Origin: a virus
Length of the DNA: 31,333 nt
Direction: 5' to 3' (one strand)
IMG/VR virus record: IMGVR_UViG_3300031839_000799
Coordinates: 1-31,333 of that record
The notes beneath the pieces are model-generated. The model saw only the letters and a program-made list of their open reading frames with translations, did not search any database and was not told where the DNA came from. Made by a program: the position numbers and the translations under genes. Position 1 is the stretch's first letter. Each line of letters starts with the position of its first letter. Below, piece after piece: positions 20,580 through 30,921 of the stretch.

Positions 20580-20837
20580 TTAATCTACTAGAACAACATC
20601 GCCATCACGAATAACCCTATAAAGAGTATCTTTCCATGATATGTCGTGTCCAGCATGTTTATCGTAATATATCGTATCACCATCTTTTAAACCTTCTACA
20701 AGGTTTCCGCACGATATTATTTTTGCTTTTATATAACGGTTGTCTTGATCAGTTTCATCTGTCATGATCAACCCAGCAACCTTTTTAGGTTCTGTCTTTA
20801 TTCTGTCTACTATAATGTATCTATTGATTGCTTTCAT
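20580..20837 (-). CDS. groES: Co-chaperonin GroES
   Basis: This 85-residue protein is the lid of the GroEL folding chamber. NRYIIVDRI matches the first barrel strand of GroES, and GLIMT (about residues 22-26) replaces the IVL contact tripeptide of the mobile loop. AKIISCGN corresponds to GEVLAVGNG, LKDGDTIYYDKHAG to VKVGDIVIFNDGYG, and RVIRDGDVVLVD to the closing strand. The roof loop is shortened relative to the 97-residue E. coli protein. The ATG lies inside the end of groEL, with a 17-base overlap, so translation is coupled and the order is groEL then groES, the reverse of bacterial operons. Confidence 0.9.
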   Translation of the reverse strand: MKAINRYIIVDRIKTEPKKVAGLIMTDETDQDNRYIKAKIISCGNLVEGLKDGDTIYYDKHAGHDISWKDTLYRVIRDGDVVLVD

Positions 20838-22386
20838 TTGTTCTCATGTTTGAAATTACACAATCTGCAGATATAATCGTTGATACTACACTTACTGCAT
20901 TTTTAAGTGCTGACTTGGTAACTAACACTGGATCTATAATACCAGCTGAAATCATAGTAGCATCTTCTCCTGTTACTACATCTATGCCTTGACCTTCTGG
21001 TTCGTTATGTTCTACATAGTCTATACCAGCATTTTCAAGTACAGTGTAAAAAGGAGCTTTTATAGATCTTAGTAGTATCTCTTCACCTACCGCTTTAGCG
21101 GAGATTTTCTGAGAGGCATTTAATAGTGCAACTCCGCCACCTGGTACAATACCTTCTTTTAAAGCTGCTTTTGTAGCATAGATAGCATCTTCAACTCTAT
21201 CTTTCTTTTCTTTAAGTTCAACTTTAGAATCAGCGCCTACTTTTACCATACCCACTGATCCTGATAGCATAGCTAACCTTTGTCTATGTTTCTTTTGTAT
21301 AAACGGGTTTTTCTCCCATTTATCTATAGTTTTGTTAATACTAGCTATTCTTTCCTCCATTTCATCTTGTGGAGTCTCTATAGTAAGAACTGTATTTTTA
21401 TCGTCAGTTATAGCTGTATAAGCAACTCCTAGACAATCTATATCTATAAGATCTAAATCATCACCAAGTTCTTCGTTTATAACTTTAGCACCTACAAGAA
21501 AAGCAAGATCTGCTACTGTATCATCTTTAGTAGGACCAAAGCCTGGCAAGTCAACTATATTAACTTTTATATTACCTTTTACTTTATTCATAAGAAGTGC
21601 AGCTTTAACTTGCTGATCAACTGGAGCTACAATTAACAAAGAACGTTTGTTTTTTATAACATGTTCTAATATCTTTTGTATTTTTCTTATATTAGGTATT
21701 TCTGAAGATACTATTAATACTAATGGGTTATCAAGCTCACATATCTGCTTGTCCTTATCAGTAACGAAATGTGGAGATGTGAGTCCTGAATCTACTTGTA
21801 CGCCGTCAACTACTTCGACATATGTTTCTTCAGTTGGTGACTCTTCCATTAATACCACACCATCCTTACCTACTTTAGTATAAGCTTCTGCTATAATCTC
21901 TCCTAGCTCCTCATCATTATTACAACTAATTGAACTAACAGATCTCAGCATATCGCCCTCGATCTTTACAGAAATCTTATCTAGGTAATCATTAACCTTT
22001 GTAAGACCGGATTTAATCCCGTCTTTAATTTCTCTAATGCTAGCATCGTTTTTGCTAACCTCTTTTAATAGTGATTCAGCAAGGACGGTAGCTGTAGTAG
22101 TACCATCACCTGCTTCTCTCACTGTGTTTCTAGCAGCTTCTTTAATAAGGGTTGCACCCATATTTTCAACCGGGTCAAATAAGACAACCGATTCTGCTAC
22201 GGTTACTCCGTCTTTTGTTATGACCGGGAGTCCTCTGGCGTCTTCGTATATAACGCACTTTCCAGATGCTCCTAGGGTTGATTTTACTGCTTTAGCTAGT
22301 TTTTCAACGCCAGCTACTATTTTACTATTTGCGTCATTGCCAAAGTTTACGTCTTTGACAATCTCGCTTGGTTGATTGTATTCCAT
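20821..22386 (-). CDS. groEL: Chaperonin GroEL (Cpn60), phage-encoded
   Basis: This 521-residue protein forms the ATP-driven folding cage. The ATP-site blocks are present: TLGASGK (37-43), TKDGVTVA (58-65, Asp59), GDGTTTAT (93-100, Asp94) and VEDAIYATKAA (398-408, Asp400, the hydrolysis Asp), then GIVPGGGVAL. The equatorial and intermediate domains look intact. The apical substrate/GroES-binding face differs from E. coli: Tyr199 to Leu202, Tyr203 to His206, Leu234 to Gln237 and Leu259 to Lys261 by my alignment, while the Phe204 and Leu237 equivalents remain. The flexible Gly-Gly-Met tail is absent, and the protein ends in RTNESNQ. It is probably used for capsid or giant-tail-protein folding. 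Confidence 0.93.
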   Translation of the reverse strand: MEYNQPSEIVKDVNFGNDANSKIVAGVEKLAKAVKSTLGASGKCVIYEDARGLPVITKDGVTVAESVVLFDPVENMGATLIKEAARNTVREAGDGTTTATVLAESLLKEVSKNDASIREIKDGIKSGLTKVNDYLDKISVKIEGDMLRSVSSISCNNDEELGEIIAEAYTKVGKDGVVLMEESPTEETYVEVVDGVQVDSGLTSPHFVTDKDKQICELDNPLVLIVSSEIPNIRKIQKILEHVIKNKRSLLIVAPVDQQVKAALLMNKVKGNIKVNIVDLPGFGPTKDDTVADLAFLVGAKVINEELGDDLDLIDIDCLGVAYTAITDDKNTVLTIETPQDEMEERIASINKTIDKWEKNPFIQKKHRQRLAMLSGSVGMVKVGADSKVELKEKKDRVEDAIYATKAALKEGIVPGGGVALLNASQKISAKAVGEEILLRSIKAPFYTVLENAGIDYVEHNEPEGQGIDVVTGEDATMISAGIIDPVLVTKSALKNAVSVVSTIISADCVISNMRTNESNQ

Positions 22387-23787: not shown

Positions 23788-23823
23788 TTATAGTTACTCG
23801 AATATGATTTTATTTAAAGTGTG
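23788..23823 (-). promoter_or_regulatory. Degenerate minus-strand copy of the phage promoter motif
   Basis: Read on the minus strand, CACA-CTTT-AAATAAA-N10 is followed by GTAACTATA one base further on. This parallels the plus-strand motif CACA-N4-AAATACG-N10-GATAATATA with the same inner spacing. It lies immediately upstream of the first leftward gene (ATG at 23783) and shares the TGTCACA arm of the adjacent palindrome. The -10-like box matches only partly, so this is tentative. Confidence 0.3.
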
Positions 23824-23866
23824 ACAATTGCCTGTTACTATCTACTATTAACTAGCTAATGTCACA
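23820..23866 (+). repeat. Imperfect palindrome, copy A (operator candidate)
   Basis: A 47-base element runs from TGTGACA to TGTCACA with GCC/GGC-type inner matches; it shares GCCTGTTACTAT with copy B and GCTAATGTCAC with copy C. It lies in the control region between the divergent clusters, between the leftward first gene and the first rightward promoter motif. A symmetric protein-binding site is the simplest reading, but an RNA hairpin is possible. Confidence 0.6.
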
Positions 23867-24016
23867 AAAAGTATTGTAAATATTGGGGTATAGTGTAGCC
23901 CCCCCTCCCCCCGGCACTAGTCACAAATTAAAAACGCTTTTCTTTAGCCCCACGGGCCCATTTTCATTATCATTTCCTTAAAAGTTTTTAGCTTTTGTAA
24001 TACAGACTAGTCAGAG
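23867..24016. other. Non-coding remainder of the divergent control region with a C-tract
   Basis: No gene is visible. A C7-T-C6 tract at 23899-23912, preceded by a GGGG and a TATAGTGT stretch, is conspicuous in AT-rich surroundings. A second GC island, CCCCACGGGCCC, lies near 23950-23961. GGGG (23885-23888) can pair with the C-tract. The second decayed CACA-N4-AAAAACG near 23925-23940 has no -10-like box. The region could hold a control structure or an origin; neither is shown. Confidence 0.4.
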
Positions 24017-24334: not shown

Positions 24335-24382
24335 TGTGACACTAGCCTGTTACTATATCCTTATTAATAGGCTTATGTCACA
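24335..24382 (+). repeat. Imperfect palindrome, copy B (operator or hairpin)
   Basis: A 48-base element with the best symmetry of the three copies: TGTGACA-N2-AGCCT-N-TTA against TAATAGGCT-N-ATGTCACA. It lies 11 bases after the stop of the preceding gene and 65 bases before promoter copy 2, and it is followed by CTTTTCTC. Position allows either a terminator for the first gene or an operator for the next promoter. Confidence 0.65.
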
Positions 24383-26573: not shown

Positions 26574-26789
26574 ATGAGAAAATTTAATATACAAGACAGA
26601 ATAGTCTTAGACGAAATGATAGATGCTTTCAAAAGAGAGCTAGTCAAAACTCACGTAGCTTACAAGCTAGAAAACAAAAGACCAATAATTACCCAACAAT
26701 ATTGGGAACAGATGATTGATGAGGTTCAAAGCAAGATAGATAGTTTTACTACTAGTAAAGCTCTCGAACAAAGCAACAAGTATAGGTAA
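26574..26789 (+). CDS. Small charged helical protein
   Basis: This 71-residue protein is mostly helical (DRIVLDEMIDAFKRELVK; YWEQMIDEVQSKIDSFTTSK), with a basic start and end. It closes the copy 6 gene set; its stop codon overlaps the first bases of the structured RNA region. The composition is like small coiled-coil regulators. No family recognised. Confidence 0.55.
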   Translation: MRKFNIQDRIVLDEMIDAFKRELVKTHVAYKLENKRPIITQQYWEQMIDEVQSKIDSFTTSKALEQSNKYR

Positions 26790-27027
26790 TTGAGGTTGGG
26801 TGGTAGCAAACTCTAAGGTTCGACTGATTCTGGTCAAGACGAAAGACTCTTATGAGGCTTGGTTCTTATAAAGTAGATCCAGATAAGTGTGAAGGGATAA
26901 GGCAAAACGGCAGGATAAAGCAAAAATAGTGACAACACTGTACAGGCATTAAGTACGTTTGTTCTAGAATACAACTGAATGTGTCTCAGACGTAAACACT
27001 ATAGAACCACACCTGCCCACCTCAATT
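26788..27027 (+). ncRNA. Structured RNA domain U1 (paralogous pair, first copy)
   Basis: This 240-base element is closed by a 9 bp stem AATTGAGGT (26788-26796) with ACCTCAATT (27019-27027). Inside are GGGTGGTAGC (26798-26807), GGCAAAACGG and CAGGATAAAGCAAAAA (26901-26926), and TAGAACCACACCTGCCC (27002-27018). GGCAGG (26909-26914) pairs with CCTGCC (27012-27017). GTGG (26800-26803) could pair with CCAC near 27007-27010, which would cross that stem and make a pseudoknot. No long reading frame is present. U2 repeats the same blocks. A structured RNA is well supported by covariation; its function is unknown. Confidence 0.6.
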
Positions 27028-27048
27028 ATGCTATACACACCACAATAT

Positions 27049-27227
27049 ACGAGGTGAGGGTGGTAGCGCGTGAGATGTGTACGCTTGGAAGTTAGCGCAT
27101 AAATCTGCAAGACAGTAGCCCACTAACTCATATAGCGATCTTACTCACTTGGCAGAACGGCAGGATAAAGCAAAAACCGAAACTCGGCTCACCGAAACTC
27201 GGTAGAACCACACCTGCCCGACCTCGT
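27049..27227 (+). ncRNA. Structured RNA domain U2 (paralogous pair, second copy)
   Basis: This 179-base element is closed by ACGAGGT (27049-27055) with ACCTCGT (27221-27227). It matches U1 in GGGTGGTAGC (27058-27067), the 26-base block at 27151-27176 (one change), and TAGAACCACACCTGCCC (27203-27219, identical). Where U1 has T-A/A-T pairs at the end of its closing stem, U2 has C-G, a compensatory change. The variable middle holds two tandem CCGA-AAC-TCGG hairpins. The intervening sequence differs in length between copies, as expected for RNA, not protein. A T-tract follows the closing stem. Confidence 0.6.
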
Positions 27228-27266
27228 TTTAATAGGGTGCGTGCTTTAAATTAGCCGCCCAACAAC

Positions 27267-27323
27267 TCTCTTATTGGTATTATGATGATACCTTTGACAC
27301 ACCGCAATCATAGTGGTAAGAGA
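27267..27323 (+). ncRNA. Small closed RNA domain E3
   Basis: This 57-base element has closing stem TCTCTTA (27267-27273) with TAAGAGA (27317-27323). It contains a hairpin GGTAT/ATACC with a 7-base loop, and a second hairpin CCGC/GTGG with a 7-base loop directly abutting the 3' closing strand. The outline is that of a reduced tRNA without its D-arm, but the 7-base loops lack T-loop or anticodon signatures. Support is structural only. Confidence 0.35.
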
Positions 27324-27327
27324 TGGA

Positions 27328-27413
27328 TAACTAGGTATGGCATGCGAACTATAAGACGATTATAGTGGTTATGTACTACTGACGAGTATGAGGTTCGATT
27401 CCTCACTAGTTAC
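27328..27413 (+). ncRNA. tRNA-like domain E4 with canonical T-arm
   Basis: This 86-base element has acceptor-like stem TAACTAG (27328-27334) with CTAGTTA (27406-27412). Before it lies a T-arm TGAGG-TTCGATT-CCTCA (27389-27405) that fits the GGTTCGANTCC consensus exactly and joins the 3' strand with no gap. The length equals a long-variable-arm tRNA. However, no normal D-arm is visible and the middle hairpin ACTATAA/TTATAGT has no U33-type anticodon loop, so a functional tRNA is doubtful. A tRNA mimic or decayed tRNA is more likely. Confidence 0.5.
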
Positions 27414-27418
27414 AAATA

Positions 27419-27615
27419 GCCCAAGTACAAGGTGAACAGTAAATCTATGGTAATGTGGGAACACTGCACAGGTGTATGAGGTTTTTAGCCCTCCACCTCA
27501 GTCGTTAACAAAAATAGAGCCTTGCCGCTACAACAACCGAAAAGCGGTTCATTAAGTAACCTGCGAATCGGTAGTAGTACTAGGAAAATAGGTGGTTCGA
27601 ATCCACCCTTGGGCG
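27419..27615 (+). ncRNA. tRNA-like domain E5 with T-arm and long insert
   Basis: This element is about 197 bases. GCCCAAG (27419-27425) pairs with CTTGGGC (27608-27614). The T-arm GGTGG-TTCGAAT-CCACC (27591-27607) directly precedes the 3' strand, again with the GGTTCGANTCC consensus. It is far too long for a tRNA and has no recognisable D or anticodon arm or intron signature. Inside are TGAGGT/ACCTCA and CCGCT/AGCGG hairpins. It follows E4 after five bases and is followed almost at once by promoter copy 7. The pairing of T-arm and acceptor is unlikely by chance in both E4 and E5. Confidence 0.5.
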
Positions 27616-27619
27616 CATG

Positions 27620-27653
27620 CACAAACTAAATACGAATTAGTTTGGATAATATG
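27620..27653 (+). promoter_or_regulatory. Phage promoter motif, copy 7
   Basis: CACA-AACT-AAATACG-N10-GATAATATG. The last base of the -10-like box differs. It starts right after the tRNA-like region and leaves a 26-base gap to the ATG at 27680. It is the last copy in the window, so the downstream genes to the HTH gene and beyond probably form one transcript from it. Confidence 0.75.
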
Positions 27654-27679: not shown

Positions 27680-28081
27680 ATGAATGCAAAAGATTTAGAG
27701 CTAAAGATCTCCGGCTTAGAAAAGGCGATCGAAGAAAAAACTGCTGATGCAAGCAGATTTCAAGATGAGTTAAAAATAACCAAACAACAATTAGCAGATG
27801 TTAATAAACCAGAACTAACAGGTTCTCAGTTAGATGACATACAAGAAGCTATTGAAAAAGCTGTAGATACTTTTGACTTTGATGATACTGATAACTATGA
27901 TAAAGAGTTTGAACTTGACTATGATGGTAGAGTACAGCTTGCACACTTTGATTTCACTAATACACAAGATTTAGTTGAAATGATAGTAGAAAAAGTACAC
28001 AAACTGTTTGTTGAAATTGAAGATGAAGAAGATGACAATAGCCAATTAAACACACAAACAGTAGCGGAAAAAATTATATAG
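27680..28081 (+). CDS. Acidic coiled-coil protein
   Basis: This 133-residue protein starts with a long helix with heptad-like spacing (residues 5-48: LELKISGLEKAIEEKTADAS onward). A very acidic region from about residue 60 follows (FDFDDTDNYDKEFELDYD), with a helical tail. The acidic surface would suit a DNA-mimic or chaperone role, but no family is recognised. It is the first gene after promoter copy 7, followed after one base by the next gene. Confidence 0.6.
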   Translation: MNAKDLELKISGLEKAIEEKTADASRFQDELKITKQQLADVNKPELTGSQLDDIQEAIEKAVDTFDFDDTDNYDKEFELDYDGRVQLAHFDFTNTQDLVEMIVEKVHKLFVEIEDEEDDNSQLNTQTVAEKII

Positions 28082-30180: not shown

Positions 30181-30307
30181 AATAAAAAAATGGAATGATA
30201 TGAAATATGGTAATATTGATTACACTGATAGAACAATAATTATTTTAAAAACATTAAAACCAGAGGGTGTGACAACAGCCTCTAAAGTATATAGAGTAAT
30301 AGGCTAA
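30158..30307 (+). CDS. Small hypothetical protein upstream of the HTH gene
   Basis: The 49-residue frame MSEDLISKIKKWNDMKYGNI starts inside denV (23-base overlap) and ends KPEGVTTASKVYRVIG. The C-terminal third looks like part of a small winged or helical fold. The stop TAA overlaps the ATG of the next gene by one base. The 3' end lies within palindrome copy C. Coupling to both neighbours makes it likely to be real. Confidence 0.5.
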   Translation: MSEDLISKIKKWNDMKYGNIDYTDRTIIILKTLKPEGVTTASKVYRVIG

Positions 30308-30314
30308 TGTCACG
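30268..30314 (+). repeat. Imperfect palindrome, copy C, spanning the HTH gene start
   Basis: A 47-base element runs TGTGACA-N2-AGCCT ... AGGCTAATGTCACG; the last base of the 3' arm differs from copies A and B. It runs from inside the 49-residue gene across the ATG of the HTH gene at 30307. Conservation of arms here, in coding sequence, is notable. Confidence 0.6.
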
Positions 30315-30921
30315 TAACTTAAACTATTTTAATAACAACCGCATCGTCTACAAGCGTAACCCTATAAATGACAAGCCAACACATGAGACTAATCAGTACA
30401 TGTTCTTTGAACAAGGTACTCATGAATGTTATGCGTTGTTTGCTAGTAAAGCTAAGATAACTACGTTTAAGTCTCTTAAATGGCATTTATTAGTATTGTG
30501 GTATTTAAATCCTCAGCTTGATCAAGACTCTTTTATGATTGTAGCAGAGATTATAGCTCACAAGCCTAATGGCTTTACAAGTTTTGCTATACACGCCGAT
30601 TTACTACGTAAAATAGTATATGAAGTTAGCATGTTAGATTTAGACGAGCCACCTAAAAATAAACTACGTAAGGTTATATTTAAGTATGGTAGTGGTTTAA
30701 CTAAAGAAGAGAAGTTGTCTATAGTAGGTGAATTGATCGGCAGAACTAAGCGTATACATGAGGATGATATATACCAGTGTATGCTAGATTTAAATGACTT
30801 AGGTAAAAAGATTACAATAACCCAGTTAGCATTGTATTTAGAGTGTTCTACTAGAACGATACAAAGAAATATAGGTGAAGATCTTAAACGAGAAAAAGAA
30901 TTATTAAACAGAGAACTATGA
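30307..30921 (+). CDS. HTH protein, candidate regulator binding the palindromes
   Basis: This 204-residue protein ends in a good helix-turn-helix, KKITITQLALYLECSTRTIQ and RNIGEDL (about residues 167-193): helix, turn and recognition helix with STRTI as the start of the second helix. The N-terminal two thirds contain aromatic and hydrophobic helices (KWHLLVLWYLNPQLD) suited to dimerisation. A conserved-looking GLTKEEKLSIVGELIGRTKR segment precedes the HTH. Its ATG lies inside palindrome copy C, so it may regulate itself and, through copies A and B, the control region. The binding is a hypothesis. Confidence 0.65.
   Translation: MSRNLNYFNNNRIVYKRNPINDKPTHETNQYMFFEQGTHECYALFASKAKITTFKSLKWHLLVLWYLNPQLDQDSFMIVAEIIAHKPNGFTSFAIHADLLRKIVYEVSMLDLDEPPKNKLRKVIFKYGSGLTKEEKLSIVGELIGRTKRIHEDDIYQCMLDLNDLGKKITITQLALYLECSTRTIQRNIGEDLKREKELLNREL

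Follow-up and report, generated by a model that had tools for sequence, protein, structure and literature searches.

The window analysed here, the whole stretch of 31,333 bases of a virus record, carries an array of five closed elements composed, as we propose, of two RNA kinds not listed before: a pseudoknotted RNA that we call scaffold A (elements 1 and 2) and tRNA-like elements without a D-arm (TLEs, elements 4 and 5). Parts of this array are shared by dozens of related phages, and together they represent an RNA system that is real and, it seems, new. Our main reading, to which we give a probability of about one half (0.48), is that the array is a 3'-UTR composite in which scaffold A caps mRNA 3' ends and the TLEs are processing signals for RNase P and RNase Z.

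The capsid, portal and terminase genes of the window are related to those of podophages of Flavobacteriia: the capsid protein shows 40-45% identity to those of Flavobacterium phage elemo, Maribacter phage Panino and MW202828, and the portal 27-54% identity over the relatives listed. The structural genes occupy the minus strand up to ~24 kb, and beyond this point there are small genes on the plus strand. The phage also encodes GroEL (20821-22386, minus strand), as do related flavophages. The array is placed within this plus-strand part, between a small ORF of 71 aa (26574..26789, plus strand), whose stop codon abuts the first copy of scaffold A, and a gene of 133 aa without a PHROG match (27680..28081, plus strand), the first one past the array. 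All five closed elements that the original prediction had placed here are present, and the ~830 bases that they span contain no credible gene, as it had also claimed. Among the 50 records with scaffold A or a TLE, 45 have the terminase in common, at ~58-93% identity in 44 of them and at 26% in the distant L005. Within this phage clade, many of whose records are fragments, both scaffold A and the TLEs are patchy, and therefore neither is essential.

Elements 1 and 2 represent the same RNA, previously unlisted, in two copies. Both hold AACGGCAGGATAAAGCAAAAA and TAGAACCACACCTGCCC, and both present a closing stem P1, a GUGGU/ACCAC helix, a GGCAGG/CCUGCC pseudoknot and an AUAAAGC core. In copy 1 (26788..27027, plus strand), P1 is formed by 26788-26796 and 27019-27027 (AATTGAGGT/ACCTCAATT), GUGGU at 26800-26804 is matched by ACCAC at 27006-27010, and GGCAGG at 26909-26914 by CCUGCC at 27012-27017; the core lies at 26915-26921, arm P2 at 26805-26908 and arm P3 at 26922-27003. 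The corresponding parts of copy 2 (27049..27227, plus strand) are P1 at 27049-27055/27221-27227 (ACGAGGT/ACCTCGT), the helix at 27060-27064/27207-27211, the pseudoknot at 27159-27164/27213-27218, the core at 27165-27171, P2 at 27065-27158 (module M1) and P3 at 27172-27204 (module CCGAAACUCGG twice). The general order is P1-5', GUGGU, P2, GGCAGG, AUAAAGC, P3, GA, ACCAC, R, CCUGCC, P1-3', with P2 taking from 5 to 131 nt ahead of the next strand. Since the GUGGU/ACCAC and GGCAGG/CCUGCC pairings interleave, they imply a pseudoknot within P1. It is the 3' half of this pseudoknot, and no hairpin arm, that adjoins the 3' closing strand in these two elements; the internal arm claimed at this place for all five was found in elements 3, 4 and 5.

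The 21-mer core of elements 1 and 2 occurs exactly in 15 IMG/VR contigs, and relaxed patterns extended these exact matches to 35 distinct copies from contigs of uncultured phages; loose patterns also drew unrelated coding matches (L036, L096-L098), which were discarded. When the copies were collapsed to 16 distinct sequences, 98.5% of cells were paired. Double-compensatory changes were observed at 6/6 pairs of P1, a figure slightly favoured by the choice of P1 registers by best pairing, and at two pairs of the pseudoknot (AGUAGG/CCUACU in L020, UGUAGG/CCUACA in L037), whose pairing was not picked in this way. GUGGU/ACCAC is invariant, and L018 is the single sequence that breaks two outer pseudoknot pairs. 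A nested GGG/CCC pairing was considered as an alternative to the 6-bp pseudoknot; it is missing in L018 and L037, and therefore it is not the conserved pairing of scaffold A.

The two perfect T-arms of the original prediction are real and belong to elements 4 and 5, each directly against the 3' acceptor strand. Element 4 (27328..27413, plus strand), a D-arm-less TLE of type B, has the closing stem TAACTAG/CTAGTTA with the acceptor AACTAG/CTAGTT, followed in order by GUAUGG, a variable arm, UGACGAGUA, the T-arm TGAGG-TTCGATT-CCTCA and, past the acceptor, A-C. Element 5 (27419..27616, plus strand) presents the acceptor GCCCAAG/CTTGGGC, a GG 5 nt past it, the T-arm GGTGG-TTCGAAT-CCACC and a final G-C; its 165-nt insert contains the module AUGAGGUUUUUAGCCCUCC and the internal loop ACCGAAAAGCGGUU/AACCUGCGAAUCGGU. 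As in tRNA, both have an acceptor stem, an abutting 5-bp T-stem and a TTCRANY loop. The D-arm and the anticodon arm with a 7-nt loop are lacking, the inserts of TLEs being of 10-170 nt without a D-stem, and in the miniature TLEs (39-41 nt) a second arm is altogether absent. The shortest insert, of 10 nt, is found in L019, whose 39-nt TLE reads GTGTAGT-AATGGTTTTT-GTGAG-TTCGATT-CTCAC-ACTACAA. None of the elements is a normal tRNA: ARAGORN returned 0 genes and the RF00005 cloverleaf was not matched. The idea of a series of tRNA mimics holds structurally in the case of elements 4 and 5, with their acceptor/T-arm half and recurring relatives; elements 1 and 2 are a separate pseudoknotted family and not tRNA-like.

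Searching the viral collection for the exact T-arm of element 4 gave 24 contigs. In this set, selected by the T-arm only, a complementary acceptor is present in essentially every copy with differing sequences (AACTAG/CTAGTT, GGATAG/CTATCC, AACCAG/CTGGTT, AGACAG/CTGTCT, AGCTAG/CTAGCT and AGATAG/CTATCT), followed by GUAUGG in most copies, a variable arm and UGACGAGUA. A scan for an acceptor with an abutting T-arm in 529 kb of related loci gave 49 elements, three of them true tRNAs, against 0, 0, 1, 0 and 0 in shuffles, the stem-pairing counts being partly by construction since the scan demanded pairing. In ten related phage records (63-79 kb), 10 TLEs and 3 tRNAs were found and none in shuffles; each genome has just 0-2 TLEs. 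The common features of TLEs are a UUCGANU T-loop, a GG soon after the acceptor (3-5 nt past it in 33/40) and a C past the discriminator. The GG could stand in for G18G19 of the D-loop. By a fixed rule, C follows the discriminator in 37/43 TLEs, with a background C of ~0.19, and it does so in 40/40 ARAGORN tRNAs of related isolate phages. This C is unneeded for the stem, which suggests that TLEs use the tRNA 3'-end machinery. The isolate Maribacter phage Panino itself has one unannotated, ARAGORN-negative TLE, with its acceptor at record position ~4941 and ~23 nt ahead of the next start codon.

Other observations were made beside these elements. Two tRNA-like repeats, CCGCGAwAGGAA..GAGUUCGAAUCUCCCUGCGGUU, with a T-arm of a different family, lie just ahead of a type B TLE in L071 (~330-490, matched strand). 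Intergenic, unannotated tRNA or tRNA-like genes missed by ARAGORN are present in Cellulophaga phage phi40:1 (L233, 20817-20679, minus strand) and in phi13:2 (L235, 27796-27875). The TLE linker CUGACGAG resembles the CUGANGA box of a hammerhead, yet no GAAA box comes after it, and this candidate was rejected.

Element 3 (27267..27323, plus strand) is predicted to fold as a closed unit with two hairpins, the second being a 5-bp arm with a 7-nt loop that abuts the closing stem. This stem, TCTCTT/AAGAGA, has 6 bp, and perfect closing stems of 7-9 bp, expected for all the elements, exist in the other four. One further occurrence of element 3, with one substitution, is located directly ahead of the TLE of L018; it is inherited together with element 4. 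Elsewhere in the window there is a conserved hairpin, UGACAnnAGCCUGUUACUA..UUAAUAGGCUUAUGUCA, at 23819-23870, 24335-24381 and 30268-30312, which is common to many related loci, with the strict form in L006, L017 and L019; the copy at 30268 includes the start codon of the ORF 30307-30921. In addition, a compound element, CUAGCUCCUUAAGCGAUAGC..GUGCUGUUGGGAG, with its own swappable arm, is located between scaffold A and a TLE in L007, L009, L016 and L072.

It should be noted that the closing stems alone have no statistical weight: with a span of 40-260 nt, 8 perfect stems of 7 bp or longer were counted against 7.6 expected in shuffles, no better than chance. The folding z-score was -1.9 for the whole region and -3.3 for element 5 alone. 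The array is significant because its parts are conserved elsewhere, namely the 21-nt core and the acceptor/T-arm geometry, and not because of the closing stems. With the Rfam 15 models, the window gave no match at the gathering score or at E<=10 beyond junk level, and L009 and L016 gave only junk-level matches at E<=5. The window was below threshold (gathering score and E<=10) for the GOLLD and ROOL covariance models, it contained neither a tmRNA model match of Rfam nor an ARAGORN tmRNA, and no Rfam ribozyme or riboswitch model matched. By DNA, the 50,697 phage records of INPHARED showed no nucleotide relatives of the array parts. In the GTDB genomes, scaffold A had 0 matches and the TLE pattern 2, chance-like by their context. 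No description of such RNAs was found in the open-access literature.

The arms are mosaic, with identical modules in both arms of scaffold A, in TLEs and at other sites. The module GGGAUAGACGUUUYACGAAAUCUCC is found in arm P2 (L007, L027), in arm P3 (L008) and elsewhere (L009, L070); AUGAGGUUYUUAGYCCUCC in P3, in P2, in a TLE insert (element 5 of the window) and at other sites; GUAAACGUUUUYACGAGC in the inserts of nine TLEs, in L013 as part of P3 and in L018 standing free. The CCGAAACUCGG-like halves are mostly in P3, and also in P2, in a TLE insert and at other sites; in L013, a 50-nt block is nested between two of them. The modules themselves are well conserved among phages, and M2 can be drawn, by manual inspection, as an H-type pseudoknot. 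Modules are inserted only at fixed docking sites, which have the matched linkers AAAAA/UA, AGAA/AA and GAGUU/AGAA, and no target duplications were seen at these sites. Furthermore, the internal-loop strands ACCGAAAAGCGGUU and AACCUGCGAAUCGGU of element 5 occur in swapped order in L070 (~684-735), which would agree with a recycled 3D motif more than with plain copying. These properties bear on the proposal that the modules are tiny mobile palindromic elements entering permissive loops of scaffolds without an array-level function. The same modules at many sites, and the nested insertion, would agree with it, but we consider it very improbable, given the fixed docking sites with matched linkers, the lack of target duplications and the swapped strands, which transposition does not explain.

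With regard to location, in 20/35 copies scaffold A starts at a distance of -9 to 11 nt relative to a stop codon, and a U-run follows P1 in 24/35, copy 1 of the window being without it. The copies of L001, L004 and L005 are leader-like, 26-43 nt ahead of an ATG. Large TLEs, where they occur with scaffold A, are within ~0.4 kb of it (G009, G016, G033, G035, the window and L018), and miniature TLEs are ~2-3 kb away. In L017 and L031, a true tRNA-Asp directly follows scaffold A, in the place of the TLE. Just past the array there is a promoter-like motif, AAATACGA-n9-GATAATAT (27628..27652, plus strand), with 5 copies in the plus-strand region of the window (24455, 24695, 25815, 26240 and 27628) and 0 expected; a looser form has 189 copies in 494 kb of related loci. 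A sigma-70 promoter scan showed no enrichment. The motif is found 7-15 nt past P1 in 11/35 copies of scaffold A, and its presence near only about a third of them counts against the composite 3'-UTR reading. It follows 8/20 of the copies that end in CCUCGUU and 3/22 of the other stems, and with only 8/20 such ends the idea of an insulator is only partly supported.

Our main reading can be worded as follows. The array would be a composite non-coding segment directly 3' of an early-type gene, ending just ahead of the promoter-like motif of the next gene. Scaffold A would be an H-type pseudoknot locked in a closing stem, with two docking sites that take exchanged hairpin or internal-loop modules. 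Its 3' strand (ACCAC-R-CCUGCC-P1) would pair continuously with three separate upstream strands, often with a U-run after it, and most likely it gives the upstream mRNA a knotted 3' end, as a terminator and/or a block to 3'-5' exonucleases. The TLEs seem to retain only the tRNA half recognised by RNase P, RNase Z and the CCA-adding enzyme, that is, acceptor, T-arm, GG and N73-C74. They are most likely processing signals excised from the transcript, as in mascRNA or mitochondrial tRNA punctuation, and such excision would set the 3' end of the preceding RNA and the 5' end of the following one. In support of this reading are the location, the U-run, the tRNA-type 3' signature and the fact that true tRNAs can occupy the same spot. 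Our confidence is only near one half because of the invariant core of scaffold A and the leader-like copies of L001, L004 and L005; the AUAAAGC core points to a role beyond that of a 3' cap. As a broader and more tentative proposal, the Flavobacteriia-type podophages might possess a modular RNA system in which two scaffolds with no relation to each other, one a pseudoknotted element at mRNA 3' ends and the other a tRNA half that lacks the D-arm and is read by host tRNA-processing enzymes, dock shared exchangeable RNA 3D modules, punctuate operons and possibly counter RNA-targeting host defences.

Among the alternatives, an anti-defence function would see mosaic arms and tRNA-like halves as decoys that titrate host anti-phage proteins, such as nucleases that read the tRNA tail or elbow and RNA-binding toxins, an arms race driving the module exchange. 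Comparable cases exist: the pseudoknots of the phage RNA pseudo-ToxI counteract a type III toxin (PMC3475682), and Cas12a3 defends against phages through cleavage of tRNA tails (PMC12851939). The exchange between scaffolds does look like diversifying evolution, and the H-type pseudoknot that can be drawn for M2 would agree with this function. However, the conservation of the modules, the low number of TLEs per genome and the lack of matches to the known antitoxin RNAs in Rfam make this explanation unlikely. The miniature TLEs, being without an anticodon arm, argue against decoys for anticodon nucleases and not against decoys for proteins that read the acceptor/elbow half.

Scaffold A could also be a new self-cleaving ribozyme or a ligand-binding aptamer. 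A pseudoknot surrounded by an invariant AAC..AUAAAGC..GA, and arms without a fixed length, have the look of small ribozymes and riboswitches, and the three leader-like copies would suit such a function. Against this, most copies come after a stop codon and not in a leader, the Rfam ribozymes and riboswitches were unmatched, and no permuted version was seen, since every copy opens at the same stem; we regard it as rather improbable.

The original prediction had also offered a single ornate RNA of large size, in the manner of GOLLD. The ~830 nt, the phage, the pseudoknots and the tRNA neighbourhood are as in GOLLD and ROOL (PMC12286853), but neither GOLLD, ROOL nor any other Rfam family matched, and the units are separable, alone in most genomes or reordered in other phages (examples are the lone 71-nt scaffold A of L004 and the 39-nt TLE of L019), so that this claim is unsupported and scarcely credible. 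Least probable of all are functionless, decaying tRNA genes, even though L017 and L031 have true tRNAs in the corresponding position, for acceptor and T-stems pair perfectly across many different sequences and the D-arm-less layout recurs with conserved linkers, and decay would break the stems first.

Structured RNAs so conserved and modular, with internal-loop blocks re-used across scaffolds even strand-swapped, are undescribed in Rfam or in the open-access literature searched. Scaffold A together with the shared-module architecture would constitute a categorically new kind of RNA, and the TLE taken alone would be a new form among tRNA-like structures. In the 39-nt TLEs, bacterial viruses would possess minimal tRNA halves of natural origin. 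TLEs make tRNA punctuation outside organelles directly testable, one of them being in the isolated phage Panino, and scaffold A, a compact pseudoknot with clear covariation, is suited to structure determination and function tests.

Among known systems, pseudo-ToxI of phage PhiTE resembles the array in idea only, as RNA pseudoknots that may be anti-defence mimics (PMC3475682); the array differs in sequence and is not made of tandem repeats of one unit. The STAXI motif of Enterobacteriales, a pseudoknot unit typically in 2-3 tandem copies and present in Rfam (PMC2864571), is like scaffold A in being a pseudoknot unit that can exceed one copy per locus, but its Rfam model was unmatched here. GOLLD and ROOL, ornate RNAs whose function is not established (PMC12286853), share with the array the phage location, the pseudoknots and the tRNA neighbourhood, whereas the array consists of separable small domains and not of one conserved large fold. 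The tRNA-like domain of tmRNA has, like TLEs, an acceptor and a T-arm, no D-stem and a second arm replaced by other RNA; in TLEs, no tag reading frame was found, no CCA is encoded, and inserts are of any kind or of just 10 nt. In mascRNA of MALAT1 and in mitochondrial tRNA punctuation, a tRNA or tRNA-like unit lies between other RNAs, and the acceptor and T-arm half acts as a processing signal. TLEs would resemble them in both respects; however, mascRNA and mitochondrial tRNAs keep a D-arm remnant or the full cloverleaf, whereas TLEs are without a D-stem, some of them without a second arm, and reside in phages, where their cleavage is putative.
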